Positions 1 to 62,122 of a DNA stretch of 64,000 nt are shown in pieces. Every line of letters starts with the position of its first letter. Position 1 is the stretch's first letter. A model generated the notes under the pieces. The model worked only from the letters and a program-made list of their open reading frames with translations, made no database searches and was not told where the DNA came from. Source of the stretch: Mesostigma viride (taxonomy: Eukaryota > Streptophyta > Mesostigmatophyceae > Mesostigmatales > Mesostigmataceae); assembly GCA_009746045.1 (NCBI GenBank), contig RPFO01000104.1, positions 3,821,666 to 3,885,665 on the forward strand, given 5' to 3'. The position numbers and the translations under genes were made by a program.

Positions 1-647
1 GGCGGGGGCGCTGGCGCGACGCCGTGGTGGATTCGCCATGGTGGCTACCCAAGGCTGTCCATACGGGGAGGTGGGTGCACGTGCTGCGATGGCGCCGTGA
101 GGACGAGTGGTCGCACCATGATTTTGCTGGCAGGCATTATTTTGTTGCTACCCAATGATGCACCCTGGCCGCTGCGCCAGGTGGGTACGCTGGCACTAGG
201 TGGGTGCGCGGGCACCATATGGTGATGACTGACCAGCCACTCGTCAACGCAAGTCTTCCCCGCACGCATCCGCGGCGTGGCTTGCAGGCAAGAAGAAAGG
301 CTGTGACTATAGTATATAGACAGCATGCCTGGGCTGTGCTGCTCTGCCACAAACACCGTGCACTTCCTGGCTGCAGCTGGTCACAAAATCGCCGCCACCC
401 TGAATGATTTGTTCATCTGTGTTGCTCCTCGGATGTATCGGGCGCCACTCGCCATCCAGCATGTTCGCCCAAGACTCCAATCATCTTGTGTTTCACCCAC
501 CTCATATATGTAAATCCATTCCTTGTACCTGGCCCCTGTCACTAGGGCTCCATGGTTTCCATCAGTGCTCCTTGTGCTAGTCATTAGCCCACCCCTACTC
601 GTATGCGTACCTCGACTGCGCCCGTCGATGCATGTCTGTAAACTGAC
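1..647. other. Non-coding left flank; possible upstream intron
   Basis: No coding region is convincing here. Positions 528-555 (CCTGTCACTAGGGCTCCATGG) closely match 645-670 (CCTGTCACCAGGGCTCGATGG), the boundary just before the ATG at 666. That looks like a degraded copy of an acceptor and makes it likely that the upstream sequence is an intron. Confidence 0.35.
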
Positions 648-665
648 ACCTGTCACCAGGGCTCG

Positions 666-3600
666 ATGGCGGCCGCGATGGGCATGGCAGCGCTGGCGGG
701 CGCGAGCGCAATGGTCATTGGCATGATGCTCTACCGGCAAGCTCTGCTGCGGAAACAGGTATCGCTGTGCACCCACGAAAACGTTTTAATGTTTGCATGG
801 ATCCGCTAAAGTAGTTAAAGAAGGTTTCTAATGTTTGCATGGATCCGCTAAAGTAGTTAAAGAAGGTTTCTAATGTTTGCATGGATCCGCTAGAGTAGTT
901 CAAGAAACTAGTTCCTCTGCACTAGTTGAAGAAACTAGCTCCTCTGTACTAGTTGAAGAAACTAGCTCCTCTGTACTAGTTGAAGAAACTAGCTCCTCTG
1001 TACTAGTTGAAGAAACTAGCTCATCTGTACTAGTTGAAGAAATAGTGGTACTTTGACGCCCAGTTGCCGTGTTGCTCCCGTTTGCTTGACGTTTGCCTAG
1101 GTCAATAAGACGATGCAGCTACACCCTTGCTCATAGGACCAGGGTGTTGCCACGCTCATGCCGCCCTGTGAGAAAAAGTTACTATATGTGCCTCTACAAA
1201 AGCGGTCAAGCATGACATGCTGCCGTGGTACTTCCCGGCTCGAGTAGAGGCACGTACAGTGATCTTCCCATGATATGCCGTCAGCCGTCACCCTATGACA
1301 AGCGCCACTCCTAGGGTCGTGCGGGGTCACTCTCCGGATGAGCGTGGCCCGTTGGTGTGTGGCAAGCCAGAGCGTGGCCTACTGGTGCTTCACCTGGTCA
1401 TGGCGGAGAGAAGGGGGCGTGCGGGAGTCATGAATGTGTGTCGTGACCCGCCCGCGTGGCGGTTTTATGAGGATCCGTTTTGTACGCTGTCGTCGCGTGC
1501 GTGGATGACAGTGCCTAGGCATGAAGGGGTTGAGGTGTTACTTGGTTGGTAGTTACCACACACGCGAGCGGGCAAGAAACGTGCACCAAACCACAAGCAA
1601 GAAGTGCGGCTGCCTATCTAGAGCGCCAGTGCACAGGGGCACCGCGAGCCATGGCTGGGACGACCACTTTCAGCGCCCGTTGGGTGCTGTAGTGTGTATT
1701 GTTTGAAGGCGACATGATTACTGCTACTTCCCTGCTACTATCTCTCACAGTTTGGTCGTAAGACATAGACGAAGTGCTTTTATGGGACAATCATTGTCCT
1801 TGCCTCTTGGCCTAACTCGTCCGCAGTACAAGACTCAGAGCAATGCCAGCACGGAATGCACAGATATCCTCAGAGGCCGGTCCTCACCTGCATGCCTCAG
1901 GCCAACTAAGCTTGATGCTCCCATCTGCACCCGTTGGCCCACTTCTCCCCCTCAGAGCACCGGCCCTTTCGTGGGTTCTTCCTGTCCCTTACTCAGCATG
2001 TATGACATCGTCCATTTCCCTTTGGTAAAGAAAAAGTTGCGACGTTGAGGCCTTACACGTGTTGTCTATCGTCCGCAACCACATCCCCGGTGGGCCTGCC
2101 CCCCTCCCCCCTCCCCCCCTCGCTCGTTTGGTCGCCCCGTCTCCCCCCCTCTTAAAGCAGCGCTCTACAAAAACCACGGCCGAGCTGGAGAGCGACCGAG
2201 AGCTACAACGAGAGAGGTGGGTGGCTTATAGTGACCCGAGACGGGGGGGTATAGTGACCAAGAGTTGCGACGAGAGAGGCGGGCTGCCTGATGACAGTTG
2301 ACTGTTGACTGTGAGCTACAAATACACACCTGGAGGGCTATACTGACTGAGGTCTATACTGACAGTGAGCTATGATGAGCGTTGCGGTGGGTTGCCTTAT
2401 AGCGACGTGAGGTATGGTGGGAGCGGGTTTTGCAGCTACTTGTAGATGTGCCTGAGATTTATGCTTAGCATGAGGAATTTGTATAAGAATTTGCGTCCTG
2501 ATTCTGATTTTATGAGGTCCACTAAATTAGGCCCACTTGAGTTGTTTGCTTCTTTGCATTTATTGCTTTGATACTACTATTTGAAGTGCTGGTGAAGCGT
2601 GACCTGGGCTATCGCAAATCTGCTGGCTGGTATTCGGGACATCACCTTGCTCAGGATGGTGGGCGCGGCTCCTGCATTTGGTAGCATTTTTGTATTGCCA
2701 CATGTCATTCTGATGCTATGATTGCCTTGTCTCTTTACGCAACCTGTGTTTTGTTGATCCTTTCCCTCCCATTCATTGCCCTGTCCTCCCTCTGCTCCCC
2801 CAATTCCTATTTTCTCGCTGCCACCCCGTGCCTGGCGTGGCAGATGGAAGAAGACACTCCTGGACGACCGAGTCGGCGGCCCCGCGCCGGACAGCAGTGA
2901 GGTGCGTGTGCTTGGGGGAATCGTTAAAAAAGAAACGATCATGAATTGATGTTTCTCCATTGAATGGTTTCCTACAGGTGCAGAAAAAACCCGAATTGCT
3001 AAAGCTCTGTCTTATGAAGCAGAAACACCATATTGTATGTGGAAGGTTCACACTAGAGGGTATGCAATGAGGTTGTCTTTACTGGTTGCCTGGGGGATGA
3101 TTATCAAGAAGTTTTCTAGAATGTTTCTGTTTCGCCGATACACACGAGCACATCTCACTCTTGCTCACTCTTGCTCACTCTTGCTCACTCTTGCTCACTC
3201 TTGCTCACTCTTGCTCACTCTTGCTCACTCTTGCTCACTCTTGCTCACTCTTGCTCACTCTTGCTCACTCTTGCTCACTCTTGCTCACTCTTGCTCACTC
3301 TTGCTCACTCTTGCTCACTCTTGCTCACTCTTGCTCACTCTTGCTCACTCTTGCTCACTCTTGCTCACTCTTGCTCACTCTTGCTCACTCTTGCTCACTC
3401 TTGCTCACTCTTGCTCACTCTTGCTCACTCTTGCTCACTCTTGCTCACTCTTGCTCACTCTTGCTCACTCTTGCTCACTCTTGCTCACTCTTGCTCACTC
3501 TTGCTCACTCTTGCTCACTCTTGCTCACTCTTGCTCACTCTTGCTCACTCTTGCTCACTCTTGCTCACTCTTGCTCACTCTTGCTCACTCTTGCTCACTC

Positions 3601-4433: not shown

Positions 4434-4834
4434 CACGCCGCGCATTTGTGATTGTGTAATCGATTCACGCCTCACCTCATCTAGTGTCGCGCTCGCATGT
4501 ATGAGCTATTGTTCATATTTTTTTTGCCATATAAATAAAGATAATGGAACCTTGGGACGCTTGTTCATATTTGCTCCCAAACTGTGTTTATAATAAACTT
4601 ATGTGTTTCCCCTCTCGCTCTTGCCATGCAAAGGGCTGTTTGAATTGATGATGTAGTGTGGCAGACTCCGATCGAAGTTTCGTTCTAATTGCGGAAGTCA
4701 GCCTGGACTTGGTTTCTATGATTGCATGATCAGTTTCCTATGTATCTATCACTTCACTCATCTATTCCTCATGCGACGTACGTTGGATCGCCATGTGTCC
4801 TAGCTAAGGAATATAGTTGCATGTCATACGTGCA
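4434..4834. other. 3' flank of the first gene
   Basis: No gene is visible. AATAAA occurs at 4534-4539 in an AT-rich stretch and could mark a 3' end, though green algae often use other signals (TGTAA). Confidence 0.3.
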
Positions 4835-5450: not shown

Positions 5451-5504
5451 TAGTCACACCCATGTTAGGCTGATGAAATCTGGACATTCCTAGCCATCCC
5501 ATTA

Positions 5505-7447: not shown

Positions 7448-12566
<5,119 letters not shown>

Positions 12567-25000: not shown

Positions 25001-27767
25001 ACATTTTCTCCGGGGTGGTTGCGCCTGCCTGTGCTCTCCATCGTCGCTTGTCTTTGTGCGATGGCTACTTGGTCAATGGTCATGTGGCGTCGCAAGCAGC
25101 TACAAGACGGCGGTGCTGGAGAACGGCATCAAAGTCATGGTGAGGGGAGATCAGGATTAATATTATTAGCAATGGGGAGGCCAGAACGGCATCAAAGTCA
25201 TGGTGAGGGGAGATCAGGATTAATATTATTAGCAATGGGGAGGCCAGAACGGCATCAAAGTCATGGTGAGGGGAGATCAGGATTAATGTTATTAACAATG
25301 GGGAGGCCAGAACGGCATCAAAGTCATGGTGAGGGGAGATCAGGATTAATGTTATTAACAATGGGGAGGGCAGAACGGCAGCAAAGTCATGGGGAGGGGA
25401 GATCAGGATTAATGGTATTTATTAGCAATGGGGAGGGCAGAACGGCATCACAGTCATGGTGAGGGGAGATCAGGATTAATGGTATTAACAATGGGGAGGC
25501 CAGAACGGCATCAAAGTCATGGTGAGGGGAGATCAGGATTAATGGTATTAACAATGGGGAGGGCAGAACGGCAGCAAAGTCATGGTGAGGGGAGATCAGG
25601 ATTAATGGTATTAGCAATGGGGAGGGCAGAACGGCATCAAAGTCATGGTGAGGGGAGATCAGGATTAATGGTATTAGCAATGGGGAGGGCAGAACGGCAT
25701 CAAAGTCATGGTGAGGGGAGATCAGGATTAATGGTATTAACAATGGGGTCTGGGGAGGCCAGAACGGCATCAAAGTCATGGGGAGGGGAGATCAGGATCA
25801 ACAGGGGGGGGGAGCGTCTCAGCTAAACAGCCCACTCCAAATTAGGTCCGACGGGGATCTGTAGACGTGGAGTATGCTCCAAAATCGCCCCGCCGCCAGA
25901 ATTATTACAACAGAGTGCGCTCAAGTTGAATTTCTGAAGACAGGGCGAGGAAATTAGAACCGGAGCGTGCTCCAAAATTGGACCCGGCGCCAGGGTTTCA
26001 GGACAGGTGCGCGCTCACCGTGAGACTAGGGATACATAGATATTGGTCCGGCGCTTTGGCTTACATCCCGGAGTGAGGTACTTGAGGGCGTTCTAATGCA
26101 CATAGACGTACTACGGTAATTATACGGTACATAAGTTGTATGACACGTGGCGCAACTGCGAGTGAGCTAGGTGGCCTCAGTCAAAGTCATGGTGAGGGGA
26201 GATTAGAGCCTTTGTTGTGAAATTGTGGGGAGAACAGGTTAGAGGTCGTGGTGAGGGGAATCGGGAATATAGATCGGCGAGGGGAGAATGGATGAAAGTT
26301 TTGGTTAGGAGTCATGGCGTGAAAGTTCTGATGAGGGGAGAAGAGGATAAAAGTCTTGTTGAGAGAAGTAGGTTTATAGGTTTCATGATGAGGGGCAATC
26401 GGAATCAAAGATTTGGTGAGGGGATAATTAATGGCATGGAATTCATGGTGAGGGGATAGGTCAGGGTTCAAGTGGTGCTGAGGTGAGGGATGGTATCTCT
26501 GTTAGAGTTCAGCAGAAGTAGATTTAAGAGCCGTGATGAGGGACAAACAGTTCAGTGTGGGAGGAGATCATGATTCAAGTTTACACGAGGGGAGGGATGG
26601 CATTGCCTTCAACCTCAGCAGGATAAATCAGCCGCCATGGTGAGAGAAGCGCGATGTAATGTGGTGGTGAGGGGTAAGATCAGAATGAATTGTTTACTTG
26701 TCAATATGATGGTAGTTCAGAAGTGATGGCAAGGGCAGAATGAGATTAGCATTCGTGTCGAGGAGGGATCAACGTCACTCGCGTTGGTCATTAGGGCTCC
26801 CTCGGGGGCATGTCGTTAACGGCTACCCACGTGTGCCCTCCTTGCTGCCCACCCATGCAACATGTGTTCTCTCTCCCACTCAGGCGTGGGCTATCTGGTG
26901 TCTCGGTTCATATGCTGACTGGGGCGGCTACTTGTGGACTCTCGGGGAACGGCACTCTGGGCCACTAGTTCCTGATGTTCTTTCTCCCCAGGCACAGTTG
27001 TCAATCCTCTGCCCAACATTTTCGCAGTGGGGGCTGCCTTGCGAAGCCGTAGCCCTTGTTCGCAATTCATTTTCCGTGCCTCTAGTTGGGATGCTTTGCG
27101 CAAGTGACCAGGACACCACGCATCGTACTGATGACATTTCTCAGCAAAGAACCCTTCACCCATGTCCACTACACGGGCTACCCACCCTTGGGTTCTCGAG
27201 GCATTGGTGTCTCACCAATGTTTTTGCTGCTCAAGCCGACACACTCCCCCCCCCTCCACCCCCCCTAACAAAACACACACAAAGGCATCCTCTGGGCAGG
27301 TCCCAAGTCCCCACGTTCATCCACTGACGATGGGGTAGTTTTTGTGTCTTGTATGCCTGCATGGCTGCCTGCCACGCGCAAATGCATACATATATCGCGC
27401 AGGTCCCCACCTTCATTGACAACGACGAGCTGATCGTGGTTAACACAGCCGACAACACGTTCGTGAAGAGGTATGAATGATTAGTAGAGGTATGCAAGTA
27501 AGATTTTCTTATTCTGGTTGTAAGTGTGCCGGCGACACATGCATTGTAAAAGAGCTATTAGTGATAATGTGATAAGATTTTGATACCAGGTTGGAAATAC
27601 GCTGACAGCACGTTCGTGAAGAGGTGATAAAAATAAGAGCTTTGTGGAAGGTTAGACGTTTGTGGACAAGCAAGATGGTTGTGAAGAGGAAGTGGTAATT
27701 AGATTTTCTTTGTTGCTGTTCGTGTCAGATCTGAAGTTGAGCTGTTATATTTTGCAACAGAGTATAG
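13070..27767 (+). CDS. efp: Organellar elongation factor P (EF-P), nuclear-encoded, 12 exons
   Basis: EF-P relieves ribosome stalling at proline-rich sequences. Exons: 13070-13195, 13347-13377, 14564-14577, 14762-14812, 16363-16432, 18842-18908, 20176-20243, 21158-21222, 24430-24488, 25100-25139, 27403-27470, 27761-27767 (stop). They total 666 nt, 221 aa, and every splice phase agrees. Residues 1-40 are Arg-rich and nearly free of acids ([19 protein letters not shown]), an organelle presequence, more likely mitochondrial than plastid. Then come domain I ([29 protein letters not shown]), domain II ([46 protein letters not shown]) and domain III ([29 protein letters not shown]), as in bacterial EF-P of about 188 aa. 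The loop tip modified in bacteria is Arg (QGRG), not Lys. The 14-nt and 7-nt exons were chosen by phase, spacing and splice sites and are the least certain parts. Confidence 0.9.
16892..17924 (+). repeat. (CTC)n trinucleotide tract of about 1 kb in an EF-P intron
   Basis: About 340 CTC units, nearly pure except for small interruptions at 16960-17010 (CAC, TTC). It lies in the intron between the EF-P exons at 16363-16432 and 18842-18908. It is pure pyrimidine on the sense strand, so the open Ser, Leu, Pro, Gly and Arg frames through it are artefacts of the triplet unit. Confidence 0.98.
18066..18495 (+). repeat. (GTGTGCGT)n octamer tract
   Basis: An alternating purine-pyrimidine octamer repeat, about 53 units, lies only 140 bp after the CTC tract in the same EF-P intron. 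Such tracts can adopt Z-DNA. Open frames through it are spurious. Confidence 0.97.
18582..18652 (+). repeat. 21-bp direct repeat, 3 copies
   Basis: GAGGCTTCACACGATTGTTGC is repeated three times in the EF-P intron upstream of the exon at 18842. Confidence 0.9.
21311..21480 (+). repeat. Diverged copy of the Penelope-flanking repeat
   Basis: The segment from ATCAAAGAGGCAACCAGCG, through GGATGATGGTAGCTCGAGCC, to GGCTCGCTTACGT is a mutated version of 49894-50060. It lies in the EF-P intron after the exon ending at 21222, and marks an old insertion of that retroelement family. Confidence 0.75.
22333..23388 (+). repeat. 39-bp minisatellite, about 27 copies
   Basis: The unit contains ACTTAATTAGGTTCCTTTAG and GTTGGCCGAG. 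Copies are almost identical, alternating between CCGAGACT and CCAAGACT, with one variant (AACTAGG) at about 22774. Homogeneity implies recent expansion. It lies in the EF-P intron between 21222 and 24430. It is preceded at 21980-22240 by a degenerate array of GTCCTTTCTTAAGAATG-like units. Confidence 0.95.
23918..24350 (+). pseudogene. Plastid-derived insert: rpl20 fragment fused to cysA fragment, plus tRNA-like piece
   Basis: Positions 23918-23980 translate to [20 protein letters not shown], the conserved N-terminal block of ribosomal protein L20. Immediately after it, in the same frame, 23981-24040 translates to [20 protein letters not shown], the segment just before the H-loop (VTHDQ) of the sulfate-transport ATPase CysA. 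The two plastid genes are cut mid-domain and joined end to end, so this is scrambled organelle DNA, not a gene. The base composition is sharply AT-rich compared with its surroundings. On the minus strand, 24150-24117 contains a tRNA T-arm and acceptor end (GGTTCAAACCC..). A roughly 50-bp duplication (TAGTCAATTATGAGTTAGGTG) lies at 24230-24340. Confidence 0.7.
25123..25797 (+). repeat. 63-bp array containing copies of the EF-P exon end and its splice donor
   Basis: The first unit starts inside EF-P exon 10 (25100-25139): AACGGCATCAAAGTCATG|GTGAGG. About ten more units follow every 63-66 bp, each repeating the last roughly 18 nt of the exon, the GTGAGG donor and some 45 bp of intron. Two units have lost the donor (CATGGGGAGG at about 25389 and 25776). 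The region at 26180-26720 holds further decayed GTGAGGGGA-type units. Confidence 0.93.
26180..26720 (+). repeat. Degenerate G-rich repeat field related to the 63-bp array
   Basis: Many imperfect TGGTGAGGGGA / GATGAGGGGAG motifs at irregular 25-60 bp spacing look like the decayed outer part of the 63-bp donor-bearing array. No exon is apparent. Confidence 0.6.
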
Positions 27768-34840: not shown

Positions 34841-34844
34841 TAAT

Positions 34845-36750: not shown

Positions 36751-37600
36751 GCCCATGGTCAACGAAAACACAAACAGAATCGATCAGAACATATCCATGC
36801 AAAAAGCCTTGGTACGTGTGCCATGCGATTCGCTTCATGGCCAAACTATGATCTGGGACCCGTACGACACGCCTCTGCCCAGCATCTTGAAGTACATGTA
36901 GCATATCCGGCCATGCAAATATTGACTACTGCTCAAGCAAACGCAACATAGGACACCAGAGGGAGGAGCCGAAGGACCGCTGTGAAACGATTCTATTGCC
37001 AGTTGTGTCAAGACACATGATGGATCCTATGCGCACCATGACTCCATGTCCCTCCTCGATGCCACTCATGCCCGCAGGCCGGTGCTTCCCCATACCACCA
37101 TATGCCGCCGTTAGTTTACTGCAACGTAGTATTTGTTGCTTGCCTCGACAATATGGCGCCGTTCGGTTCCCTCCTTGTGTTCCCTGACGGAGCTTGATGC
37201 TCCCCAAAAGTGCCCACAGGCGGCCCAACCCCCCATCTTGGCGTGTAGCATATTGGTAAGTTTTTTGCAACAATAATGCGAGCTTGAGCAGCCCTCGCAA
37301 GGCAGAAAAGCTGCCAGATCGGCCAGTGAGCCGCTCGTTGCTTGTTGAACTGGCCAGCTCGCCTCCAGACGTTGTTTATCATGTAACTTCCTTCAACCTG
37401 GCTGCTTGCGTACTTCCCTATCAAATCCTATGTCAACTTGAGCTGTGTAATTCGTGTCACTGAGACGATAGCAGCCCCCGGTATGCACGTTGCGCATGGC
37501 CCATGTTTTGTTCAGGGCTCAGTCTCTGATGATCTTGTACATGGAACCTCGTGCCCACAAGGGCCATGAGAGACCGTCTCCGGAGACCGCCCGTTCCGGG
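36751..37600. other. No gene seen
   Basis: Intergenic or 3'-flanking sequence of the gene at 37908-39236. At 37525-37545 the phrase GATGATCTTGTACATGG resembles the last exon of that gene (GATGACCTTGTAGATGG). Confidence 0.35.
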
Positions 37601-37907
37601 CTGACCCATCGTTTTACTCCCAAGCGTATTTAATAAGTACCATCTCCTGAGTGAATGGATATTTAATAAGTACCATCTCCTGACTGAATGGATATTTGAT
37701 GAGTACCACTCCTCGTACCACTCCTTGTTGACCTTGTATCAGCCCACGGGGGGCCACATGGTGTGTGGCCAATGGGCCACTCCCCCCCGCAGGCTCCCTC
37801 CTTGGCACCCTCCTTGTAAGCTGTACTTGTGGCTCACTCCTTCCAGGGATCACTCCTAGGGTAGGTCACTCCTTGCATCCCTCCTTAATAGCAGGCCACT
37901 CCTTGGC

Positions 37908-39236
37908 TCACTCCTTGATGACCTTGTAGATGGCGCACAGCCGCGACGGCTTGAAGATCTTGGCCTTGAACATGAACGTAGGGGGAACCTGGTGTATGAA
38001 AAAAAAAAGTTAAAGATGGCCGCGATTGATAGCCTCGCACGCAGCCCGTAGAATGCGGATGCGGAAAACAACAATGCCGATGAGGAAGTGGATGCGGACA
38101 AGGGATTCAGGAGGGAGAAGGGACTCGGTCAGGGCCAGAGCAGGCGTAGCCGCACCGACAGTCAAACAAGTTCAGGGGTGAGATGGCGCTTTCAACCGGC
38201 TTGCTGTTTACTTAATCCTGGCCAGCGAGTTCGTGCATGCTGAGTAGAAAGGCACGGATCTTTCATGGCAAAAAAAAAAAAAGCCGGCAGCAGCAAGGTT
38301 TTTAGCGGATCCCGGTGCAAGCCGGCGACCGAAGCAAGGGAGGTTATATATTCGAGGGCGGAGCAACGACGACGAACGAGGTCAGGCTACTAGAGTACGA
38401 GGCTCGTTGTAAACGCCATCACATCCAGACGCAAGGGGGGAAAGGCGGATGCAAGGGAGGCAGAAATGCAAGGGACTGCAGCGACCGACAAATAAGCCCA
38501 GGCTGTAGTACAACGCTACTTGTGAATCTGAGCTAGGATGCCCAAAGCAGGCGCACCCGTATTATCATCCAAAGATTAGCTGCTGTCGATCCCGCGCAGG
38601 AATTAGAATCCACAGGAAGACCGAAAAGATAGGAATAACGTTCATATGGATCTTGCCGAGTGACAAGGGCACCCCGCAAGATAACGCAAGAAAGGAACCG
38701 CAGATTTTCAACTGCGCAGATTTTCAACTGTCCATAGCAACCTCGTCGCTTACATTGATGATGGTGTAGTTCTCCTTGTCATGATGATACTGCTCGTATT
38801 CCTGCGGCATCCCGAATCTGGTGTTGACCGTCCAACCCACAGGCTGGAAGAGCATCCCAGTGAATTCCATGCCCTTGCAGCCGGCCGGGACACCTGGTTG
38901 GCTGCAAACCTGTGCGCAGAACTTTTCATGCGTAAGGAGAGCCACCAAAGCCTCCTTGGCTTCCGGGGCCAGCTCGAAAGATGCATCGATGTTCTCAACG
39001 GCCCTAATTCCCATCCGACTGACCATCCGACTGCACCGAGGATTACACGCTGTTGGATGGACATTTCCAGCATGATGGCGCCCACTGTCCCACCTCGCAG
39101 GTGCTGGGCCCACCGTAAGAGGCATCACTGTCCGTGGCCGAGCCGCTTGATTGCGTGCACACGCTACCTGCGCCCGTCCAGCAAGCCCATCGGTGTACCC
39201 CGCCACGGAAACCAGGTTACAAGCTGCAGCTGCCAT
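37908..39236 (-). CDS. Two-exon protein of unknown function, about 187 aa
   Basis: Exon 1 is 39236-38754 and exon 2 is 37988-37908 (stop TGA), joined in phase 0 with donor GTAAGC and acceptor CACCAG. The join gives ..QYHHDKENYTIIN + VPPTFMFKAKIFKPSRLCAI and ends YKVIKE. The middle reads AVENIDASFELAPEAKEALV, then LLTHEKFCAQVC and GCKGMEFTGMLFQPVGWTV, an ordinary mixed globular composition unlike the surrounding repeats. I do not recognise the family. The N-terminal third (MAAAACNLVSVAGYTDGLAG) is less sure: a GTAGCG donor after GRAQ at about 39167 could begin another intron, and another frame at 39085-39010 is also open. There is no obvious membrane span. The last exon is bordered on its 3' side by degraded copies of itself. 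Confidence 0.55.
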
Positions 39237-40422: not shown

Positions 40423-47356
<6,934 letters not shown>

Positions 47357-49893: not shown

Positions 49894-50265
49894 TATCAAA
49901 GAGACAACCAGCGCAGGCCAGAAATCGGGAGAATCCGGACCATGGTAGCTCGAGCCTGCCGTTATCTTTTCCGCGTTTTCGAGTCGTTCAGGATGATGAA
50001 GATGAATGGTGATGGAAATGTGTATCCTTGTGCATTGAAATTATGGCTGGCTTACGTGTGGAGCGACTAGATGACCTAGACGGTGGGGCCGGAAACAGCA
50101 TGCTTGATCAGGGCGTGTGTTTCGAGCCTAACTGGCCGGGAGTGTCTAGTGGTGAGCACCATTGCTGCGATCGCTCTCCCACCATTTACGAGGAAATACC
50201 CGCAAATGGAAAACCACTGAAAAGGTCTAGCTAGTCAGTCATCACGTTAGCCATGCCATGATTCC
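49894..50265 (+). repeat. Left flanking direct repeat of the Penelope-like element
   Basis: Bases 49894-50180 are repeated almost identically, in the same orientation, at 54447-54731. The left copy extends a further 85 bp or so that is also present in the solo copy at 30346-30718. Penelope-like elements are often bounded by such pseudo-LTR direct repeats. A 45-bp partial copy precedes it (49844-49888). Confidence 0.85.
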
Positions 50266-50452: not shown

Positions 50453-53400
50453 TCAGATGTGCGGAGATACTATGCGATCCAGCCGGTCCACGACCTGTTT
50501 GTAGAGCTTGTGCCAAGGGGCAGCACCGAACAGATGTGGGTGACGTTGCAAAAAACATCGGACTTGACGGAGCATAATGGCTCGGTCATAGTCTTTGACC
50601 AATAAACGCTGCAAGAGTTCAACAAGAGTCGTGATGAAATCAACACGATAAGAACAAAGACGGGAAAAACGATGTAACTGAGAAAGAACAACACCATATT
50701 TTGCTGTGTGGGAAAGGAGACTGTGAATATCGGGGTAACGAATAAAAGGAATTTGCTGGTATTTAGGATCCTTGCGCTTATCATAGACAGCCGTACGCCA
50801 GCCCTTCTTGTTATGGGTAATGTTAAGATCGAGGTAATTGCAATGAGTATCCTCCGACGTGAGCTTTAATGTGAGGGACGCTTGCGGGTAGATGCCAGGC
50901 AGACCAGCGGTGATATACAAATGGGTTGCGAAATCAGGGTTGTCGAAAGCGATGACATCATCAATGTATCGACATGTATGGATAAAACGCCTGATGAGAA
51001 CATCATCGTTTGAGGCAATGAGATTCTCCATGAATGCAAGCTCATAAGTGTATAGATAGAGGTTTGCAAGGAGCCCGGCACAGTTAGTGCCCATAGGGAT
51101 GCCGATAGCTTGTTGGTATACATTGCCCGCAAAACAGATGAAGGTGTTATCAACAAGATAAGAGATCCAATGGACAAGGTCAGCCTTCGTGATAATATAA
51201 TTATAACCATCCCGCACGATAGCACCTGCCGCGATCCCTGAGAGCCACGTTGCCGTGGGCTTGGTCTGAGAAACACGCACGTGCAGGTGGTTGCGCCCGT
51301 GAGGCCTACGTGCATACAGACGAGTAAGGAGGCTATCTAAACGAGCTTTCAAATCGTGCAAATCTAGTGTGGTATATAGAGTGGTGAAATCATAGGTGGC
51401 TATGGGCATAGGTATACGTTTCTCTGCTGCTGTCTTAGAACGGCTAAGGGCGGCAAGGCGTAGGCGTACTTGGGCTGAGTCTATGACGATCCAACTACCA
51501 GCGCATTCATACCCGGCATTCGACAGCACCTCCACCCATAATGCATTGGCTTCGGGGAGAAGAGCATTCAAAGCATGGCAGATGAGTTTCGAGAGAGGCA
51601 TCAGTGGGGCTGAATGCGACGCAGCAATGGTGCGCAAAGCAACAGGAGTTTTGTGCAGCTTAAGAGTGAGATACAGATATGGGAACGTAGTGGTGGTGGC
51701 GCGTCGCTGCCGCTTAAGGAATGCCCGAGCAAAAATGTTTTGGCTGTGCAGAAAAGCCCGATGAGCAGCAGTGATACTGGCGGTGGACTGTGCACGCTGA
51801 ACATAGGTAGGGCTGGACGCCAACTCGTGTTGCAAAGTAGCAAGGTAGTGCTTCTTGCATATGAAAGCAAAGTTGTTGGCACTCTTGTCAACACACGTGA
51901 TGATAAAGTCCTGCTTGAAGTGGTCAAGAAGTGCTTTATCTGTGGTGTTGAGCCAGGTGGTGCGGTGGACCTGCTGGAGACGGTAATCAAGCCTGGTGAG
52001 ACGTGCATTGCATTCGTGAATGACGGCGCGAAACCACGGTTCCATGGCAAGGGGAGCAAGCTGTAGGTCCGTGCTCATGGCATTGCAGAATTTGCGCAGT
52101 GATGTGGAGAGCAGTGCATTCACCTCTTTGGCACACGTGCGCTGGACCCACGGCCGAAACTTGGTGCCTTTGGCAAAAAGGTCTACAAGCGTGTGGCTCG
52201 GCAGGATGCTGAGGTCAGCGGTCATGACGTGCTGTGAGGTGGGATCAAGGTACTTGAAATACCGTTGTTGTTGGCAGGGGCAGGGCCCTGCCAAGATGGT
52301 GGCCAGCTCGGTGGGCGTTGTATCGCGGCTGACCTTCCCGTTGCTGAAAACCATTTGTCCCAAGGTGGGAGAGTAATGCCAGGCGGCAATGGGAGTGCCG
52401 AAAGTGTTGCGCACCACGAGCGGCATCGCAGCCTGCACTTGCGGCAAATGCAGAATGTGTGGCAAACACAGCTCATCCATCGCAGCATGAATGAAAGGTG
52501 AGATCAGCAAACGGCGCGGACGCAGTGCATCTGCATTCCCATTGACACGGTGCCGAATGATACGTGAGAGAAGGCCTCGCAGACTAGTGGCATGGGAGCG
52601 GGGGACTTGCAGATCAGCTGGGGAGCACGACCCGACGGCAATGTGTAAGCTGGTAAGCTTCTTCAAGCTGCAGGCTTCGAGATAGGATGCATGAAAGTTG
52701 CCGCGTTGCATAAGCCGAGACATGTGACGTAAGCAGCGGAGACTGGTGGAGTAAAGGGAAGGATCGGTGGACACATGTGTGGAAGGTGGAGGGGCCGGGG
52801 TGACGCTGGGGGGATAGGGGCGATATGGGTGGAGATTGTGCTTCAGACGCCAGGCACGGATGAACATAAGAGGGCGGGGACGGAGGGGAGGCGGGCGGCG
52901 GCGAGACCGAGCTTTGAAACTCTTGCCTTCAATGCAAAAACCGTGGGGCAGAAATGCATGTAACATTCGTTTCCAAAACGTTTCCCGATGCCCTGCGGCT
53001 TTGCGAAAAGCGGCGCCGGTAAAGGTGCCGGGGACATGTTCCAAGGGGACGACTCGCCAATCCCACCACCCGTATTGGGCCATGGCGCCATGTAGGGGGG
53101 TGTCGTCGTTGGCGGCAGGGCGGCCAATATGAAGGCGGCGTGCCGCTCGGACATGTTCCTGAAAACGCGTCCAGGCATCCCGTTGCGTCTGGCCAACGTA
53201 GATACGCTGAGGGTACCTGCGGTTGTAAATGGCATAAATGACGCGATGGGTGCTTACGGGGTGTGGGCGAGTGGAGTTGGTAAGCGACAAATGCGTGCGC
53301 TGTAAGCGCCGGAGGCGACGTAGAGTATGGTCATCCTTGCAGTGATGGTTATGGCGCGTGTTGATGCGACAACGCTTCCGCCATGCCTGTGAGGAGATAC

Positions 53401-53509
53401 GATAGGGGAACTGCCGAGAAATAGCAGTGTACTTCCGGTAATCAATGCCACTGGATTGCCGTATTCTGTGGAGGGTAAGAGCATGCCAGAAAGTCATAAG
53501 GTGTTTCAT
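50453..53509 (-). CDS. Penelope-like retroelement protein: N-terminal GIY-YIG nuclease plus reverse transcriptase, 1018 aa
   Basis: A single uninterrupted frame. Residues 90-140 form a GIY-YIG endonuclease core (VIYAIYNRRYPQRIYVGQTQ then RDAWTRFQEH). A basic linker and an all-helical region follow. The reverse transcriptase occupies roughly residues 560-960: YDFTTLYTTLDLHDLKARL (motif A), VYQQAIGIPMGTNCAGLLAN (motif B, QGIPMG-type), CRYIDDVIAFDN (motif C catalytic Asp pair, about 848-851), LTLKLTSEDTHCNYLDLNI and a C-terminal helical part. Canonical Penelope elements carry GIY-YIG at the C-terminus; the N-terminal arrangement is known from a separate group found in green algae and some animals. 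All motifs look intact, so the copy could be recent or active. The element copies itself by target-primed reverse transcription. Confidence 0.88.
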   Translation of the reverse strand: MKHLMTFWHALTLHRIRQSSGIDYRKYTAISRQFPYRISSQAWRKRCRINTRHNHHCKDDHTLRRLRRLQRTHLSLTNSTRPHPVSTHRVIYAIYNRRYPQRIYVGQTQRDAWTRFQEHVRAARRLHIGRPAANDDTPLHGAMAQYGWWDWRVVPLEHVPGTFTGAAFRKAAGHRETFWKRMLHAFLPHGFCIEGKSFKARSRRRPPPLRPRPLMFIRAWRLKHNLHPYRPYPPSVTPAPPPSTHVSTDPSLYSTSLRCLRHMSRLMQRGNFHASYLEACSLKKLTSLHIAVGSCSPADLQVPRSHATSLRGLLSRIIRHRVNGNADALRPRRLLISPFIHAAMDELCLPHILHLPQVQAAMPLVVRNTFGTPIAAWHYSPTLGQMVFSNGKVSRDTTPTELATILAGPCPCQQQRYFKYLDPTSQHVMTADLSILPSHTLVDLFAKGTKFRPWVQRTCAKEVNALLSTSLRKFCNAMSTDLQLAPLAMEPWFRAVIHECNARLTRLDYRLQQVHRTTWLNTTDKALLDHFKQDFIITCVDKSANNFAFICKKHYLATLQHELASSPTYVQRAQSTASITAAHRAFLHSQNIFARAFLKRQRRATTTTFPYLYLTLKLHKTPVALRTIAASHSAPLMPLSKLICHALNALLPEANALWVEVLSNAGYECAGSWIVIDSAQVRLRLAALSRSKTAAEKRIPMPIATYDFTTLYTTLDLHDLKARLDSLLTRLYARRPHGRNHLHVRVSQTKPTATWLSGIAAGAIVRDGYNYIITKADLVHWISYLVDNTFICFAGNVYQQAIGIPMGTNCAGLLANLYLYTYELAFMENLIASNDDVLIRRFIHTCRYIDDVIAFDNPDFATHLYITAGLPGIYPQASLTLKLTSEDTHCNYLDLNITHNKKGWRTAVYDKRKDPKYQQIPFIRYPDIHSLLSHTAKYGVVLSQLHRFSRLCSYRVDFITTLVELLQRLLVKDYDRAIMLRQVRCFLQRHPHLFGAAPWHKLYKQVVDRLDRIVSPHI

Positions 53510-54446
53510 GATGATTCAGATGCACTGAGAGCTAAGACATCAAACAGAACCAGAGCGGAGCATATTGAGGTAAGTCAATATTCACTGCGTAACACCCGTT
53601 ACGCGATAGCGGTGGTCCATGATGCATCTCCCCGGGGCAGGATGTGGCTAACAACACAGCTGAATGGACTCGGAACATGTGGATTCCCAGTGGGGGGGCC
53701 TTCCAATTGTCATACTTGACACCTCTTTCCTGTAACGAAAAGATTTCCCTTCTTCATGTTCCAGATGAGTCACCGTGCTCCTGCCTTTGTGTTTTTTTGG
53801 CGTTTGTAAAGAGATATGGGAGGGTAAACAAAAGCAAAGGCTGATATTGCCGTGTGGGGGGCCCGATCCTTGGTTAGTCTCTCAAGTGCCCACAGAAAAA
53901 CACGAGAGTAGCACACACAGCGCGCAGCCCAGCCTAGCTCCCTCAGTAAAGTAAAAGAAAAAGGACAAGAACAGCAAAACAAACGAGAACAAGAAAAAGA
54001 ACAAAACACAGACACGTAGTGCAATGTGAGCGGAATGATGGAGGAAGGTGAGAGGGGGACATCGTATTGAATGTGTAGGCATTGAGGCAGCCGAAGCGTC
54101 CCATCCCCGGGTACATTCGTGGCTTTCAAAAAAGCCACAACCTGCGTGGAAGAGGAAAATGCAGGAACGATGAGTATGATCCTGAAAACGAGGTTGAGGA
54201 AACGCGGAGAGGAAATGCCGGCCGCTGAAACGATTCCGATGGAACTATGGGTTTCGCCGACATGAGGCGGTGCAGCTGACTATCTCTATGGTGTCGTGTG
54301 TGACCGGGAGTGCCGGTTCACGTGCGCACTCGTCGGACTAGCCCGACGACATGTGTGCTTGGTTGCCCACGGCTGAAATCCTCTTGCCCGTCATGCAAAG
54401 GCCACGCCTCCTAGCCGAAAACGAACTATATTCAACCAATCTAATA
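53510..54446 (-). other. 5' region of the Penelope-like element
   Basis: About 940 bp lies between the start codon (minus strand) and the right-hand repeat. No further open frame with recognisable domains is seen. It includes an AC/AA-rich stretch at 53940-54010. Confidence 0.5.
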
Positions 54447-54731
54447 TCAAAGAGACAACCAGCGCAGGCCAGAAATCGGGAGAATCCGGACCATGGTAGC
54501 TCGAGCCTGCCGTTATCTTTTCCGCGTTTTCGAGTCGTTCAGGATGATGAAGATGAATGGTGATGGAAATGTGTATCCTTGTGCATTGAAATTATGGCTG
54601 GCTTACGTGTGGAGCGACTAGATGACCTAGACGGTGGGGCCGGAAACAGCATGCTTGATCAGGGCGTGTGTTTCGAGCCTAACTGGCCGGGAGTGTCTAG
54701 TGGTGAGCACCATTGCTGCGATCGCTCTCCC
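54447..54731 (+). repeat. Right flanking direct repeat of the Penelope-like element
   Basis: Nearly identical to 49894-50180, then diverges abruptly after GATCGCTCTCCC, where the left copy continues with ACCATTTACGAGG. This copy is therefore truncated at one end. Confidence 0.85.
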
Positions 54732-54989
54732 TCTATGTCAACAAGAAACTGTGGATGCCCCCCCGGGCTCCCCCGGGATAGATCGAGCACTCAAGCCAGT
54801 TGTCTAGATGGGGGCAATCGATTATGGGATAGCTTAGGCATTACAGCACTTGAAATGATATAAGCGCACAGCGTTATAGTACCTTCAATTAGCTCTGGCA
54901 CCTTGTGGCCATCAGCTTGCGCCTTAGCCAACGTCTGGAGCCCACCTCACCTTTGTAGCATATAAGCTATGTGTCAGCCTACCTATGGT

Positions 54990-56205: not shown

Positions 56206-59200
56206 TTATTTGCTCACCACCTTGGCGTTGGTATTGGCCGCACCCACGGGGGCCGCGGGTAGGCTTCCCTTCGCAGCTGCCGCAGCTGGACTTGCCAGAG
56301 CCCCCCCTGAAGCATCAGCATCTGCAGCCGCTGCTGCTGCTGCTGCCTGGGCCTTGGCCTTTGCCTCCTTCTCCTTCGCCCTCTGCGCGGACGCGCGTGC
56401 CGCCTGCTCCTGCCGCTTGTATATCACGGCCTTGCAGTTCTCGAACGCAAAGAAGCCGACGGCGCCGAAGAGCGCGCTGTACAGCAGGCGCGGCGGCATG
56501 CCCCTCGTGAGGCCCGCGAAGCCTTCCTCCTTGGCGATCGCGCGAAGCGTGTCGATCATGCCACGGTAGCCGCCCTGGGCCATGGCGGCGGCGGCGGCGT
56601 TGGCCTTGCTGCCGCCGGTCGCGGCGATCAGCTCGGGGGAGACCTGAGCCAGAATAATGATAATGATAACATTGATGATATTAATGAGAACAAAAGTAAT
56701 AATCATTCAATGATAATTATCATCATCACAATAATAATGACAAGGCCGGGCGCGTGATGAGCATGGCGAAAGGGCGCAAACGAGCACGGTGAGCAAGTCG
56801 CGGAAAAACAAGCACAGACAGTGATTGACTCACGGCAAAATCTTACATCAGTTTGTTACTTACTTACAAATTACGATGTAGTATGTCCATGTATCCATTT
56901 ATTACGTGCCACAGACATCAGAACTGCCGAGACATGAAAAACGTAAAGACCAGGAATGCTGGATAGAGCCACCGCACCGCCGCCTACAGTGACCACCCAC
57001 CTGCGTCATGAGGCGTGTCTTGACCACGTCCAGTGGCGTCGTCAGCGCGGCCGAGCTGGCCCCGCTGATGGCCCCCAGCGCAAAATTTTCCCACGAGGGT
57101 AGCGACGTGCGGCCCGTGGTGGACAGCGCGAGCGCTTTCAGCCACTCGAACACGGTGAAGTTGATCACATTGGACGGCAGGTTGCGGAGCAGCGTGGGGC
57201 CGTAGCCCACGTAGAGGCCGCCGATTCCCTCCGTGCGCACGGTGGCCAACAGAACTTTGAGAGCGCTGTCCGCGGAGCCGACCTGGTGCGTGTGTGTGCG
57301 GGGTGTGTGGGGGGTGGGTGACGTGTGGGGTATGTGCGTGGTGTGTGTGTGGGGGGGGAATTCGGGGGTGGTGGGGGGGGGGAGAAATAGGGGGTGGGGT
57401 GGGCGGTTGGACACTTGAGGGGTGACAGGCAGAAAAACTTGGGGCTAGATGGTGCATGCATATGGGGATGGGTGGTAGAACGAGATGGGCTAGACGATTT
57501 ACAGAATAAGGGGTGGGGAGGTAGGAAAATTTTGGGGTTGAAGGGGTAGAGAAATGGGTGGTGGTGGCGGGGGTGAGAAAGAGAGTGGGGTGGTGGGTGG
57601 TGGGCGACTAGCCGGTTACTGGTTAGGTGGGGGCGGGGTGTGGGAAATGAGGAGAGATCCCCGCGGGAAAAGGGGAAAGGGGTGGGGGTGGACACAGTGA
57701 GAGAGCAAGGATCAGGTAAGGACGCCGGAGTGGCCGCGAAGCAAACTGAGGAAGAGCTAGCACAACAGGTGTATCTGACCCAACATGTCCTATTCTATCC
57801 ACACGCACTACTTCTCTCCCTTCCCTCCCGTCCCTCCCGTCCCTCCCGTCCCTCCCGTCCCTCCCGTCCCTCCCGTCCCTCCCGTCCCTCCCGTCCCTCC
57901 CGTCCCTCCCGTCCCTCCCGTCCCTCCCGTCCCTCCCGTCCCTCCCGTCCCTCCCGTCCCTCCCGTCCCTCCCTTCCCTCCCTTCCCTCCCTTCCCTCCC
58001 TTCCCTCCCTTCCCTCCCTTCCCTCCCTTCCCTCCCTTCCCTCCCTTCCCTCCCTTCCCTCCCTTCCCTCCCTTCCCTCCCTTCCCTCCCTTCCCTCCCT
58101 TCCCTCCCTTCCCTCCCTTCCCTCCCTTCCCTCCCTTCCTCCCTTCCCTCCCTTCCCTCCCTCCCTCCCGTCCCTCCCTTCCCTCCCTTCCCTCCCTTCC
58201 CTCCCTTCCCTCCCTTCCCTCCCTTCCCTCCCTTCCCTCCCTTCCCTCCCTTCCCTCCCTTCCCTCCCTTCCCTCCCTTCCCTCCCTTCCCTCCCTTCCC
58301 TCCCTTCCCTCCCTTCCCTCCCTTCCCTCCCTTCCCTCCCTTCCCTCCCTTCCCTCCCTTCCCTCCCTTCCCTCCCTTCCCTCCCTTCCCTCCCTTCCCT
58401 CCCTTCCCTCCCTTCCCTCCCTTCCCTCCCTTCCCTCCCTTCCCTCCCTTCCCTCCCTTCCCTCCCTTCCCTCCCTTCCCTCCCTTCCCTCCCTTCCCTC
58501 CCTTCCTCTCCTTCCCTCCCTTCCCTCCCTTCCCTCCCTTCCCTCCCTTCCCTCCCTTCCCTCCCTTCCCTCCCTTCCCTCCCTTCCCTCCCTTCCCTCC
58601 CTTCCCTCCCTTCCCTCCCTTCCCTCCCTTCCTCCCTTCCCTCCCTTCCCTCCCTTCCCTCCCTTCCTCCCTTCCCTCCCTTCCCTCCCTCCCCTCCCTC
58701 CCCTCCTCCCTCCCTCCCCTCCCTCCCCTCCCTCCCTCCCCTCCCCTCCCTCCCCTCCCTCCCCTCCCTCCCCTCCCTCCCTCCCTCCCCTCCCTCCCCT
58801 CCCTCCCCTCCCTCCCCTCCCTCCCCTCCCTCCCTCCTCCCTCCCTCCCCTCCCTCCCCTCCCTCCCTCCCTCCCCCTCCCTCCCCTCCTCCCCTCCCTC
58901 CCCTCCCTCCCCTCCCTCCCTCCCTCCCCTCCCTCCCCTCCCTTCCTCTCTACCCTCACTCCACCTGTTCTGCCCCACCCTACCCAACCTTCCCTTCCCT
59001 GCAGCAGCTGCTTGCTGAGCTCTTATCGTCTCTTATCTACTCCAATTACTCTTTTCCACCCCCGCGATCTCTCCCCGCTGCTCGATGAGCTCCTTGGGCA
59101 CGGCCTCCTATTCCCTCCTAACTGCTCTTGTGTCTTCTAATCACATCCTATTCACCCCCCTTTTCACCTGCAGACGCTGCTCGATGAGCTCCTTGGGCAC

Positions 59201-62122
59201 GGCCTCCTATTCCCTCCTAACTGCTCTTGTGTCTTCTAATCACATCCTATTCACCCCCCTTTTCACCTGCAGACGCTGCTCGATGAGCTCCTTGGGCACG
59301 GCCTCCTATTCCCTCCTAACTGCTCTTGTGTCTTCTAATCACATCCTATTCACCCCCCTTTTCACCTGCAGACGCTGCTTGATGAGCTCCTTGGGCACGA
59401 GGATGATGCTCGACACCATGTTGCCCAATGTAGCGGCAACAGGTGGCACCATGGCTGTCAGCTGTGGCGGCAGGTGCTGGTAGAGCGCGCTCTTGGTCAG
59501 CTCGTACGTCCCGAAATAGAGCGCTGAGGAGGGGCCCGCGCCGAGGACCGCGGCTTGCAGGCCACGGTAGAGGTCCGCCAGCCCGCCCGTTTGCTTGACC
59601 GACTGCACAAGGTACATATAATTTTCACATATACAATAGTTTTCATATGGAGTACAGGTTTGTGAGTGTACCCAGCAGTGCTGCTTGTCCAACTGCGCCC
59701 CATCGATCGAAATTGTCGACGAGCAGCATGACTTTTTTTTTTTTTTTTTTCAAGGAAGAGGAAAGTGAAGTGACTTGTGAGTTTGGTGTGTGCCCCCATG
59801 CATGGAGTGACTGACTGCAAGCCATGGGAGTGAAGTCTTCACGGGCAGTATGGATACTGGAGAGCAGGACGCAGCGCTCGATGGGCCCCTTTTTGGTCAA
59901 AGGGAGTTGAAAGAGCCGAGAATGTTCAAGAAAGACGAAGAACGTTTATGAAAGGGGATTAATGAAAATGGAAGAAAGCCCATGACAGAGGAAGAAGGAT
60001 CATGGAAGGAGGAGGAAGGTTCTGGAAGGACTCAGGTAGAGTAGCCACCCATACTGCTGGACCAAATGCAAGCTCTACCGGAGGAAGAGTTTCTGCACTC
60101 TGATACTCAATGAAATCGTTAAACAGTTGGCCCTACCCTGCTCTTCCCCAATGGCCTGCAGCACCTGCAGCATGACATCCATGGCGTGCTCACGGACTCA
60201 CCCAATCCTACAACATCAAAAGCTGCATTCACACGAAACGCCTCCTTCTCATGACATCGGCGACATGCCCCAATTATGTATACTACAGCAACGCTGCACG
60301 GCCAGTAGCATCGTTCCCCGTTTCGTTCATGCCATAGCGACATCCATACTAGTGATGTTGTTCCTAACCTCTCTCTCACCTGCATCATGACATCGATCGT
60401 GCGCTTCTAAATTCTAGTTGCATGCCAGATGAGCATTGAGAATATAATGTCCTCCCCCCAACCCCACCCCACCCCCACCCCCCACCCCACCCCACCCCAC
60501 CCCACCCCACCCCACCCCACCCCACCCCACCCCACCCCACCCCACCCCACCCCACCCCACCCCACCCCACCCCACCCCACCCACCCCACCCCACCCACCC
60601 CACCCCACCCCACCCCACCCCCTTACCTGCATCATGACATCCATGGCATGCTTGTATTGAATCCCAAGCTTGTGCTAAACTCCATGCCATGAAGGAGAAA
60701 TACAATTCCTCCTCGACCCCCTTCTCCCCCCCTTCTCACCTGCATCATCACGTCGGTCGCGTGCTTGTACACCTTGTTGGCGCCCCGCACCTGCAACCGC
60801 GTCTTGATCGTGTCAATCGGGTGCAACACCGCGCTCGTGAACGCGCCCGCCACGCCCCCCGCGATCGCCCCCACCAGCGCCTTGTTCCGCACCGCCGCCG
60901 CCGACGCGGGGGGAGGGGGGCCCCGCGCCGCTGTGGTCACGGATGCCAGGTCGCCAAAGGCGGCCATCGTGACGGATGCCAGGTCTCCAAATACGGCCAC
61001 AGGGCCACCACAGTGACCACCTGCGCGGCTGCCGCCGCTGCCTAGGAAAGGCAGCAAACCTTTTCCTTGACCCTTCGAGGAGGAGGACGAGACTGTAGGG
61101 GAGGATGAGGAGGACATAGACATAGAAGAGGAAAACTCCCTTCCTTCATGCGATGCCGAGACACCTGCCCTCCCCGAACCAGCAGCCACATCATCGCCCT
61201 CCTCTCCCTCCTCCGCGATCACGCGGCCTCGCTGCCCACCATGATGGTGAATCCCCCAGGACAGCCCACGCTTGCCCTTCGGGACGCCAGAATCGAAAGA
61301 ATGGGAGGAAGACCCACCCGGCATGGTGTTCTCTAGGTCGCTCGCGGGGGGGGCGCACGCAGGGGGGTGGGCGGCACCCATGACCCAGGAAGCGCTGCTG
61401 GCGGCGGCTCGGTCGGAGGCGGACGACAGTGCCAGTGATGTGGAAGCCACGCGCGCCAGCACAAGAGGCGCGGTGGCTGATGCAGAAAACCACCCCCCGT
61501 CCTTGCAGTCGTTGCTGGTAGCCCTATGATTCTTCGTATTTGCTACTGCCACCGTCAAGACATTCGTGCTATTCTCGGTATCCTTTCCCCGGCAATCCTG
61601 CCTGCTGTCGGCCCCCACACAGTCGCCCCGGTGCGCCCGCTTGCTCACCTTGCGAACGCTCGGCCCTAGCAAACCATGGCCCTTGAGGGGGCTGCCTTGC
61701 GAGGCCGTGGTATGGCCGTGGTTGTCGCCTTGGCCGGCACTCTCACCATCGTGGTGCTTATGCTGGCCGCCGGCCATGCAGCGCGCCAGCACATTTGCCG
61801 CGTGGGAGATGAGCTCTTGCAACGACTGCGGGGCCGGTGCCAGGATCGAGGGGGACGAGGCGGGCTGGGGTGGAAGGTTGCCCACGGGGCCAGGGATGGC
61901 CAGGGATTGGCCAGGGTGCGGCGAGTGGTGGAGCCCCTGGCTGGTGGGCGAATGGCGGGAGAGAGAGAGCGTTGCTTGGCGGTCTGCCCGTTTCTGATCG
62001 TGGCGCTCCTGTTGGGAAGGTGGGGGGTGAGAGGGAAGGGAAGGAGAAGGGGGGGGCAAGCGGAACAGAGGTGATATTTGGGGAGGAGGGGGGGTGAGAA
62101 GGGGAAGAGGGGAGGGGGCCAC
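56206..62122 (-). CDS. Mitochondrial carrier family (SLC25-like) protein with long N-terminal extension, four exons
   Basis: Exons on the minus strand: 62122-60740, 59602-59366, 57282-57001, 56643-56206 (stop), all phase 0; up to 779 aa. The carrier body starts near residue 400 with three repeats, each bearing the family signature: GAIAGGVAGAFTSAVLHPID then TIKTRLQV; LVPKELIKQRLQ; GASSAALTTPLDVVKTRLMT. Linking segments GLADLYRGLQ, GLYVGYGPTLLRNLP and GFAGLTRGMPPRLL are typical matrix helices. Such proteins exchange small metabolites or cofactors across organelle inner membranes; the pattern is nearest to S-adenosylmethionine-type carriers, but the substrate cannot be fixed from sequence alone. 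The first 400 residues are Ser/Pro/Gly-rich low complexity, so the true start may lie downstream of 62122. The C-terminus after FAFENCKAVIYKRQ is a Lys/Ala-rich tail. Confidence 0.85.
57816..58970 (+). repeat. 1.15-kb polypyrimidine tract: (CCCTCCCGT)n, then (CCCTTCCCT)n, then (CCCTCCCCT)n
   Basis: Three 9-bp-related blocks follow one another: GTCCCTCCC to about 57970, TTCCCTCCC to about 58690, then CCCCTCCCT to 58945. It fills the intron between carrier exons 59602-59366 and 57282-57001. On the transcribed sense strand it is a G/A run. The giant Pro/Ser and Gly/Arg/Lys frames through it are spurious. Confidence 0.96.
59077..59400 (-). repeat. 99-bp array carrying copies of the carrier exon 2 end and its splice donor
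   Basis: Starts of the repeated word GCTGCTCGATGAGCTCC lie at 59077, 59176 and 59275, and of the real exon (GCTGCTTGATGAGCTCC) at 59374: a strict 99-bp period. In gene orientation each unit contains about 33 nt of exon ending CAGCGTCTGCAG and, in the complete copies, the donor GTGAAAAGG. The two full extra donors are at 59267 and 59168. Confidence 0.95.
60460..60622 (+). repeat. (ACCCC)n pentamer tract
   Basis: About 32 copies, G-rich on the transcribed strand, between two copies of the carrier exon 1 donor (60379 and 60625). Confidence 0.95.

Follow-up and report, generated by a model that had tools for sequence, protein, structure and literature searches.

Copies of exon-intron boundaries inside introns of Mesostigma viride, probable products of recurrent tandem duplication across splice sites

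How does an intron come to hold copies of the very boundary at which it is spliced? The question is raised by a 64,000-nt stretch of the genome of the streptophyte alga Mesostigma viride (contig RPFO01000104.1, positions 3,821,666-3,885,665; hereafter the window), in which introns of unrelated genes contain copies of the adjacent exon edge together with its splice site. We refer to these copies as echoes. In all likelihood they are recurrent tandem duplications across splice sites, followed by decay, of the type called "mirages" in lancelets. As described in the available excerpts of two lancelet papers, mirages are minisatellite-like tandem duplications of exon-intron boundaries found in Adh3, the globins BflGb6 and BflGb9, troponin C and PGBD5; their units measure 10-160 bp, lie at 5' or 3' boundaries, are unstable in length and are said not to disturb splicing (PMC3087553, PMC3902484). 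For M. viride itself, the excerpt of the genome paper gives a mean intron length of 1,142 bp and puts the repetitive share of intron space at 30.1% (PMC6947507).

Genes in the window were read from the sequence, which gave 41 candidate junctions. To score echoes, a 40-mer centred on each junction was compared without gaps with 1.2 kb on each side and with distant tiles; for window junctions, the null consisted of distant 2.4-kb tiles. The cut-off was a score of at least 17 for the first 40 testable window junctions and at least 16 for genes verified by Pfam, where "verified" denotes support for the spliced gene as a whole and not for its individual boundaries. The independent set was the 200 kb adjacent to the window, on which the original prediction of splice-site echoes had not drawn, and all informative sequence comes from one 264-kb stretch of one contig formed by the two together. 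The 82 verified junctions (41 donors and 41 acceptors) comprise 31 from three window genes and 51 from five genes in the 200 kb. RING donor D3 was left out of the first window scan and one DnaJ acceptor out of the verified set, and RING A7 and D7 were excluded because their exon is absent from the published model.

In the first scan, 8 of the 40 testable window junctions scored at least 17, above all null tiles. Three window genes were verified after splicing. The EF-P gene matches Elong-fact-P_C (1.2e-19) and the EF-P OB domain (2.6e-8), and its exons are 100% identical to the published Mv17484-RA.1 across 60% of the query. The RING gene has a RING finger match, and its protein shows zero substitutions relative to the published Mv17486-RA.1 in the exons common to both. 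The third is a mitoferrin-like carrier with a Mito_carr Pfam match, whose nearest protein match (60% identity) bears the label Chlat1, which we take to be Chlorokybus. Six of the 31 testable junctions in these genes were positive at a score of at least 16, each above every null tile: carrier D1 and D2, EF-P Dd and De, and RING A2 and D2. The features concerned are as follows.

25099..25798, plus strand: end of EF-P exon Ed with donor ATG/GTGAGG (Dd, intron from 25140) and 63-bp array
26172..26777, plus strand: decayed and older stretch that continues the EF-P array; at four listed sites, 21-22 of the 28 positions of the exon edge are retained
27402..27690, plus strand: end of EF-P exon Ee with donor GAG/GTATGA (De, intron from 27471)
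40870..41064, plus strand: start of RING exon A with a diverged tandem copy of about 119 bp across it (published exon from 41039)
41564..41830, plus strand: start of RING exon B with acceptor GGCAG/CTGCGG (A2, exon from 41809; agrees with published model P0121)
41890..42204, plus strand: end of RING exon B with donor CTG/GTGGGT (D2, intron from 41918; agrees with P0121)
58994..59400, minus strand: end of carrier exon 2 with donor CAG/GTGAAA (D2, intron from 59365 downward) and 99-bp array
60160..60780, minus strand: end of carrier exon 1 with donor CAG/GTGAGA (D1, intron from 60739 downward)
60656-60622, 60409-60375 and 60194-60160, minus strand: three decayed copies of carrier D1, with the last 26-40 exon nt and the donor

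At the EF-P donor Dd, an array of about 10.6 units, each of 20 nt of exon and 43 nt of intron, runs from within the exon into the intron; near-identical units lie beside the exon and decayed ones deeper in. At De, a copy at 27599-27628 corresponds to the last ~25-29 exon nt plus GT. The 99-bp unit at carrier D2 consists of 34 nt of exon and 65 nt of intron, the final copies being partial or decayed (59102, 59032), and carrier D1 reached an echo score of 20 against a null maximum of 13. RING A2 has two upstream copies (41564-41590 and 41675-41703) and D2 has three downstream (42008-42035, 42144-42171 and 42177-42204). At RING acceptor A1 the P0121 junction lies 18 nt upstream of our first reading and its 40-mer scores 14, so this junction was counted as negative.

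The same pattern recurs in the 200 kb. Five spliced genes there are supported by Pfam, namely MLH1, M20 peptidase, an acetyl-CoA transporter, DnaJ and a PG-binding protein, while three further joined frames have no Pfam match. Fourteen of the 51 junctions were positive (donors 10/26, acceptors 4/25), with scores that were either at most 13 or at least 16; by gene the counts are 7/22 for MLH1, 6/14 for M20, 1/6 for the transporter, 0/5 for DnaJ and 0/4 for PG-binding. One verified MLH1 donor, at 45989 of the joined sequence, lacks GT, so its boundary is wrong, and it was scored as negative; M20 donor 160165 is positive in this count yet gave no alignment in the analysis of copy anatomy described below. 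In total, 20 of the 82 verified junctions, about one in four, carry an echo, and donors do so more often than acceptors (15/41 versus 5/41, Fisher P 0.019; this and the other P values assume independent junctions, which these are not). No verified junction has a copy on the exon side (0/82), as had been claimed from the window, and no inverted copy was found at the 51 or the 31 junctions; all copies are direct.

A codon and splice-site model, for which the window served as training set, was also used to predict exons; at score 25 it returned 85 exons in the 264 kb versus 14 in reversed sequence. Once exons shorter than 60 nt or with repeated interiors are omitted, 126 junctions remain in the 264 kb. 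In the 200 kb, exons with a predictor score of at least 25 provide 98 junctions; an intron-side copy is present at 16 of them (12 of 50 donors, 4 of 48 acceptors) and an exon-side copy at none. In the window the intron-side count is 4/28. A second region of 90 kb (L022-L030) is gene-poor and uninformative: at score 25 its predicted exons are at decoy level (17 versus 21), and of 20 junctions one was positive. Several of the predicted open frames occur there more than once and are probably retroelements.

Taken together, these counts bear out the original prediction that duplication across splice sites is repeated in unrelated genes, and they extend it to DNA on which it was not based. Its figure of at least six unrelated genes in the window was too high: three are verified and one or two more are probable, whereas one of the named cases concerns the end of a reading frame at its stop codon and another is borderline (both are described below). 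The control originally suggested, 40-mers from exon interiors, gave intronic copies in 2 of 121 cases, but it is biased because tandem duplication itself predicts few intronic copies of exon interiors.

The anatomy of the copies was analysed for 24 echoes in the window and the neighbouring DNA, four of which (u108, two of u171, and u175) lie in exons without a Pfam match and outside the 82 junctions. Copies hold the last or first 14-40 exon nt, the splice site or most of it, and a variable amount of intron. At 23 of the 24 echoes the best copy reaches 14-40 nt into the exon (median 25), in agreement with the 15-35 nt first reported; the exons are 40-260 nt long, and the search was seeded with the 40 exon nt beside the junction, with extension free to run further. 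Two MLH1 donors also have lower-ranked copies, of low identity, that extend 58, 69 and 90 nt into the exon. The absence of reach beyond 40 nt in 19 verified cases has a log10 P of about -7 under a model of uniform reach, in which the upper limit is the shorter of offset and exon length and both reaches and offsets were taken by hand. The nearest listed copy lies 35-153 bp from the original. In the best copies, the exon part is 87% identical and the intron part 75%. Copies within one intron often share changes, such as the 3-nt gap common to both RING A2 copies and two synonymous differences from the exon common to the carrier copies, which points to copy-from-copy growth or to later change in the exon.

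Mismatches between copy and exon by codon position number 40/370, 40/380 and 61/388 (10.8%, 10.5% and 15.7%; P 0.049), counted in 19 echoes with at most five copies per echo, array copies not being independent of one another. The copies show no clear coding constraint, and the pattern is that expected for neutral copies combined with synonymous change in the exon. The exon edges that were copied belong to spliced frames with matches to the EF-P, RING, MLH1 and carrier families, so copying ran from exon to intron; the reverse, capture of array sequence as an exon, is rejected on the same ground. Assembly error is unlikely for copies that differ by 10-30% from the exon edge.

The following course of events would account for these features. 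A short segment straddling a splice site would be duplicated in tandem, perhaps by replication slippage or end-joining, with 14-40 nt of it in the best copies coming from the exon and the rest from the intron. If the original site next to the exon stays in use, every copy would end up within the intron. Some arrays would then expand copy-from-copy (the 63-bp and 99-bp units and, as judged by eye, a unit of about 33 bp at RING D2), others would remain as one or a few copies, and all would decay. Copies that include upwards of about 40 exon nt may be removed by selection as would-be real splice sites. As originally proposed, the duplications leave decoy-like sites and lengthen introns.

A stronger claim of the original prediction was that duplication is anchored at splice sites, and here the result depends on the comparison made. 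In the 264 kb, matched noncoding points are positive at 152 of 5,146 positions 60-200 nt from exons and at 250 of 8,536 positions 200-500 nt away, decoy donors at 11/387 and 9/406 (20/793) and decoy acceptors at 5/416 and 6/435 (11/851). Edge-matched points, which have unique flank on one side, were positive at 204 of 4,695 positions in the introns of the eight verified genes. The junction excess over these last points is 5- to 6-fold, and across comparisons it is about 5- to 9-fold.

Several observations weigh against anchoring, or against reading too much into the counts. By plain coverage, 23.6% of intron positions in the eight verified genes lie in local repeats, as against 24% of junctions (20/82). 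In the unfiltered 200 kb, 24 of 130 junctions versus 991 of 7,727 noncoding points (12.8%) are covered at score 16, and 13 of 130 versus 776 of 7,727 (10.0%) at score 20. A test with shifted junctions in the window gave 8/40 against 3.66 expected, which is not significant (P 0.07; 0.066-0.088 over three thresholds). Sixty-two of the 82 verified junctions have no echo, and MLH1 and M20 hold 13 of the 14 positives in the independent set; because hits are clustered by gene in this way, P values computed as if junctions were independent come out too low. Lastly, RING copies 41564, 41675, 42144 and 42177 and the most distant carrier copy match the exon edge with little intron, which fits simple tandem duplication only if the intron parts turned over faster.

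The coverage figures and the shift test suit an account without anchoring, in which local tandem repeats fill introns, some happen to cross exon edges, and those remain recognisable since the exon copy does not change; the better preservation of the exon part than of the intron part in the best copies agrees with it. We regard this account as a serious contender whose chances fall somewhat short of even. Many of the repeat positions counted by plain coverage lie inside arrays, however, whereas a junction beside unique exon can only lie at an array edge. A conserved exon should keep copies recognisable for roughly twice as long, so part of the excess is presumably passive, yet the 5- to 9-fold excess over edge-matched points exceeds that factor of about 2. 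If junctions are independent, 14/51 has a P of 1e-6 against a doubled background of 2.9% and of 0.002 against a fourfold one. The excess is about 6 at scores of at least 25 (4/98 versus 93/13,682), and the limit of best-copy exon reach at 40 nt also speaks against this account.

It is also possible, though in our view rather doubtful, that splice sites, and donors in particular, are true hot spots of duplication, for instance because transcription-linked breaks or end-joining occur near exon edges. The excess over edge-matched points, the donor bias and the short exon reach all speak for this. Set against it are the dependence of junctions within one gene, the ability of selection to yield the same excess and the same limit on reach, and the lack of a clear sequence cause: over the first 40 intron nt, G content is alike with and without echoes (0.327 versus 0.334), which led us to reject G-rich intron starts as the cause. 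GC content is somewhat lower with echoes (0.473 versus 0.539, P 0.03, four features tried). The excess beyond its passive part would reflect mutation bias, selection or both, and the two are not separable here. The comparison with edge-matched points would favour anchoring; plain coverage gives little or no excess. We put forward only tentatively that tandem duplications in M. viride arise preferentially at splice junctions, and at donors most of all; that introns lengthen at their ends as the final 15-40 exon nt and the splice site are copied again and again; and that copies stay silent decoys up to a tolerance limit of about 40 exon nt, beyond which the spliceosome would use them.

It is improbable that the copies are functional, whether as alternative exon ends, recursive splice sites or selected decoys. 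Aligned copies mostly keep the GT (63/69) and AG (20/22) bases, but the alignments are centred on the splice site and hence biased, and the exon part is in any case 87% retained. The nearly even mismatches over codon positions indicate that copied exon ends are not kept as protein, and in the published RING model P0121, which is spliced at the junctions A2 and D2, none of the copies is included.

Four window stretches were searched against the 440-Mb (439.9 Mb) assembly with very common words skipped. The stretches 41540-42240 (RING A2 and D2), 60100-60800 (carrier D1) and 59050-59450 (carrier D2) each occur once, and matches to the EF-P 63-bp array are confined to the array itself. The insertion of introner-like or other mobile elements that brought or duplicated splice sites is hardly credible: introners are a known source of new algal introns, but the queried stretches are found once or only in their own array, and what is copied is coding sequence of the gene itself, which differs from one gene to the next.

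Recurrent duplication across splice sites followed by decay has known relatives. In the model of Rogers (cited in PMC3087553), introns are gained by tandem duplication of an exon segment bearing AGGT. Reportedly, the new intron there arises inside an exon, bounded by copies of opposite exon sides. The M. viride echoes likewise involve tandem duplication with splice-site-like sequence, but here an existing splice site is copied with its own intron flank and an existing intron lengthens. In the alignments, the copies repeat the same exon edge with its own intron flank and in direct orientation, opposite-flank copies not having been searched for separately. According to the excerpt available, a potato RdRp case is related to intron gain by AGGT tandem duplication (PMC4974935).

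The echoes differ from introners in that all four queried window stretches are single-locus, the search not extending to echoes in the 200 kb. Introners are dispersed mobile families that place similar intron sequences at many loci and shape algal introns. Ordinary intronic minisatellites also form arrays, grow copy-from-copy and decay; the M. viride arrays resemble them in structure and differ in that they begin in a coding exon and that most of their units hold splice-site sequence.

The closest match is with the lancelet mirages, and the belief that no such pattern had been named was mistaken, since mirages, as far as the excerpts describe them, have the same anatomy (PMC3087553, PMC3902484). 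In both systems tandem units lie across 5' or 3' exon boundaries, intronic copies carry splice signals, and units range from tens of bp to about 160 bp. The EF-P 63-bp and carrier 99-bp arrays begin inside the exon and so span the boundary, and both kinds of boundary are affected, as the 15 donors and 5 acceptors show. M. viride differs in being a green alga rather than a chordate, in that echoes were counted over many junctions (in one assembly, from sequence alone), and in its many single decayed copies, short exon part and preference for donors. Among the matches listed in our literature search, judged by titles and the beginnings of abstracts, there was no mirage-type report from outside lancelets. 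The novelty lies in the lineage, in having counted over many junctions, in the abundance of worn single copies, in the surplus at donors and in how short a part of the exon is copied.

Three further window features were considered as splice-edge echoes:

514..670, plus strand: acceptor CACCAG/GGCTCG of the first gene (exon from 660) with upstream copy 514-555
10639..10726, minus strand: putative donor of a hAT-like gene (putative intron from 10706 downward) with weak copy 10666-10639
37516..37990, minus strand: repeats of the reading-frame end of a 37.9-kb gene, including the stop region; a real repeat

The first-gene acceptor scored 19 against a null maximum of 13, and neither this gene nor the 37.9-kb gene has a Pfam match. 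The putative hAT donor is borderline (15 against a null maximum of 12), and the hAT acceptor is at chance level, with 0.34 such sites expected. The 37.9-kb gene was rejected as an echo since its repeat covers the stop-codon end of the frame and, by this reading, no splice junction.

Other observations were made in the window. A hAT family C-terminal dimerisation region lies at 7451-9118 on the minus strand (Pfam 6.4e-10), while the putative splice sites of that gene have no such support; a 42-bp repeat (14 codons, ~6 units, 9502-9747) that contains AG and GT lies in an open, possibly coding frame upstream of the hAT exon. At 16892-18494 there are two tracts of great length, (TCC)n and (TGTGCGTG)n, of about 1,030 and about 470 bp. 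Inside an EF-P intron, a 39-bp array of 27 units (98% matches, 22336-23388) is unconnected to any splice site, and a tandem repeat at 60940-61000 lies within the open N-terminal part of the carrier gene. Direct repeats at 49894-50185 and 54445-54736 (292 bp, 99.3% identical) flank a minus-strand open frame of 1,018 aa at 50453-53509, which has no Pfam match; to our eye it resembles a reverse transcriptase with an N-terminal GIY-YIG-like stretch and is presumably Penelope-like. The published EF-P model (P0122; region 24429-28201) departs from the EF-P frame after the exon ending at 24488, continues as a short tail and lacks the C-terminal domain, which is encoded by the exons beside the 63-bp array.

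Echoes may trip gene predictors; the published EF-P model leaves the frame one exon before the array, perhaps for this reason. Mirages were previously reported from single lancelet genes, and their presence at about a quarter of the junctions checked in a streptophyte of early divergence raises the possibility that introns in general can grow in this way. The many ready cases of near-identical splice sites within 35-150 bp of each other allow a direct test of how the true site is marked. If junctions are indeed preferred birthplaces of duplication, this process would be a main reason why the alga has long introns, and its genes would constitute a natural experiment on how the true splice site is distinguished from a copy that is nearly identical and only tens of bases distant.

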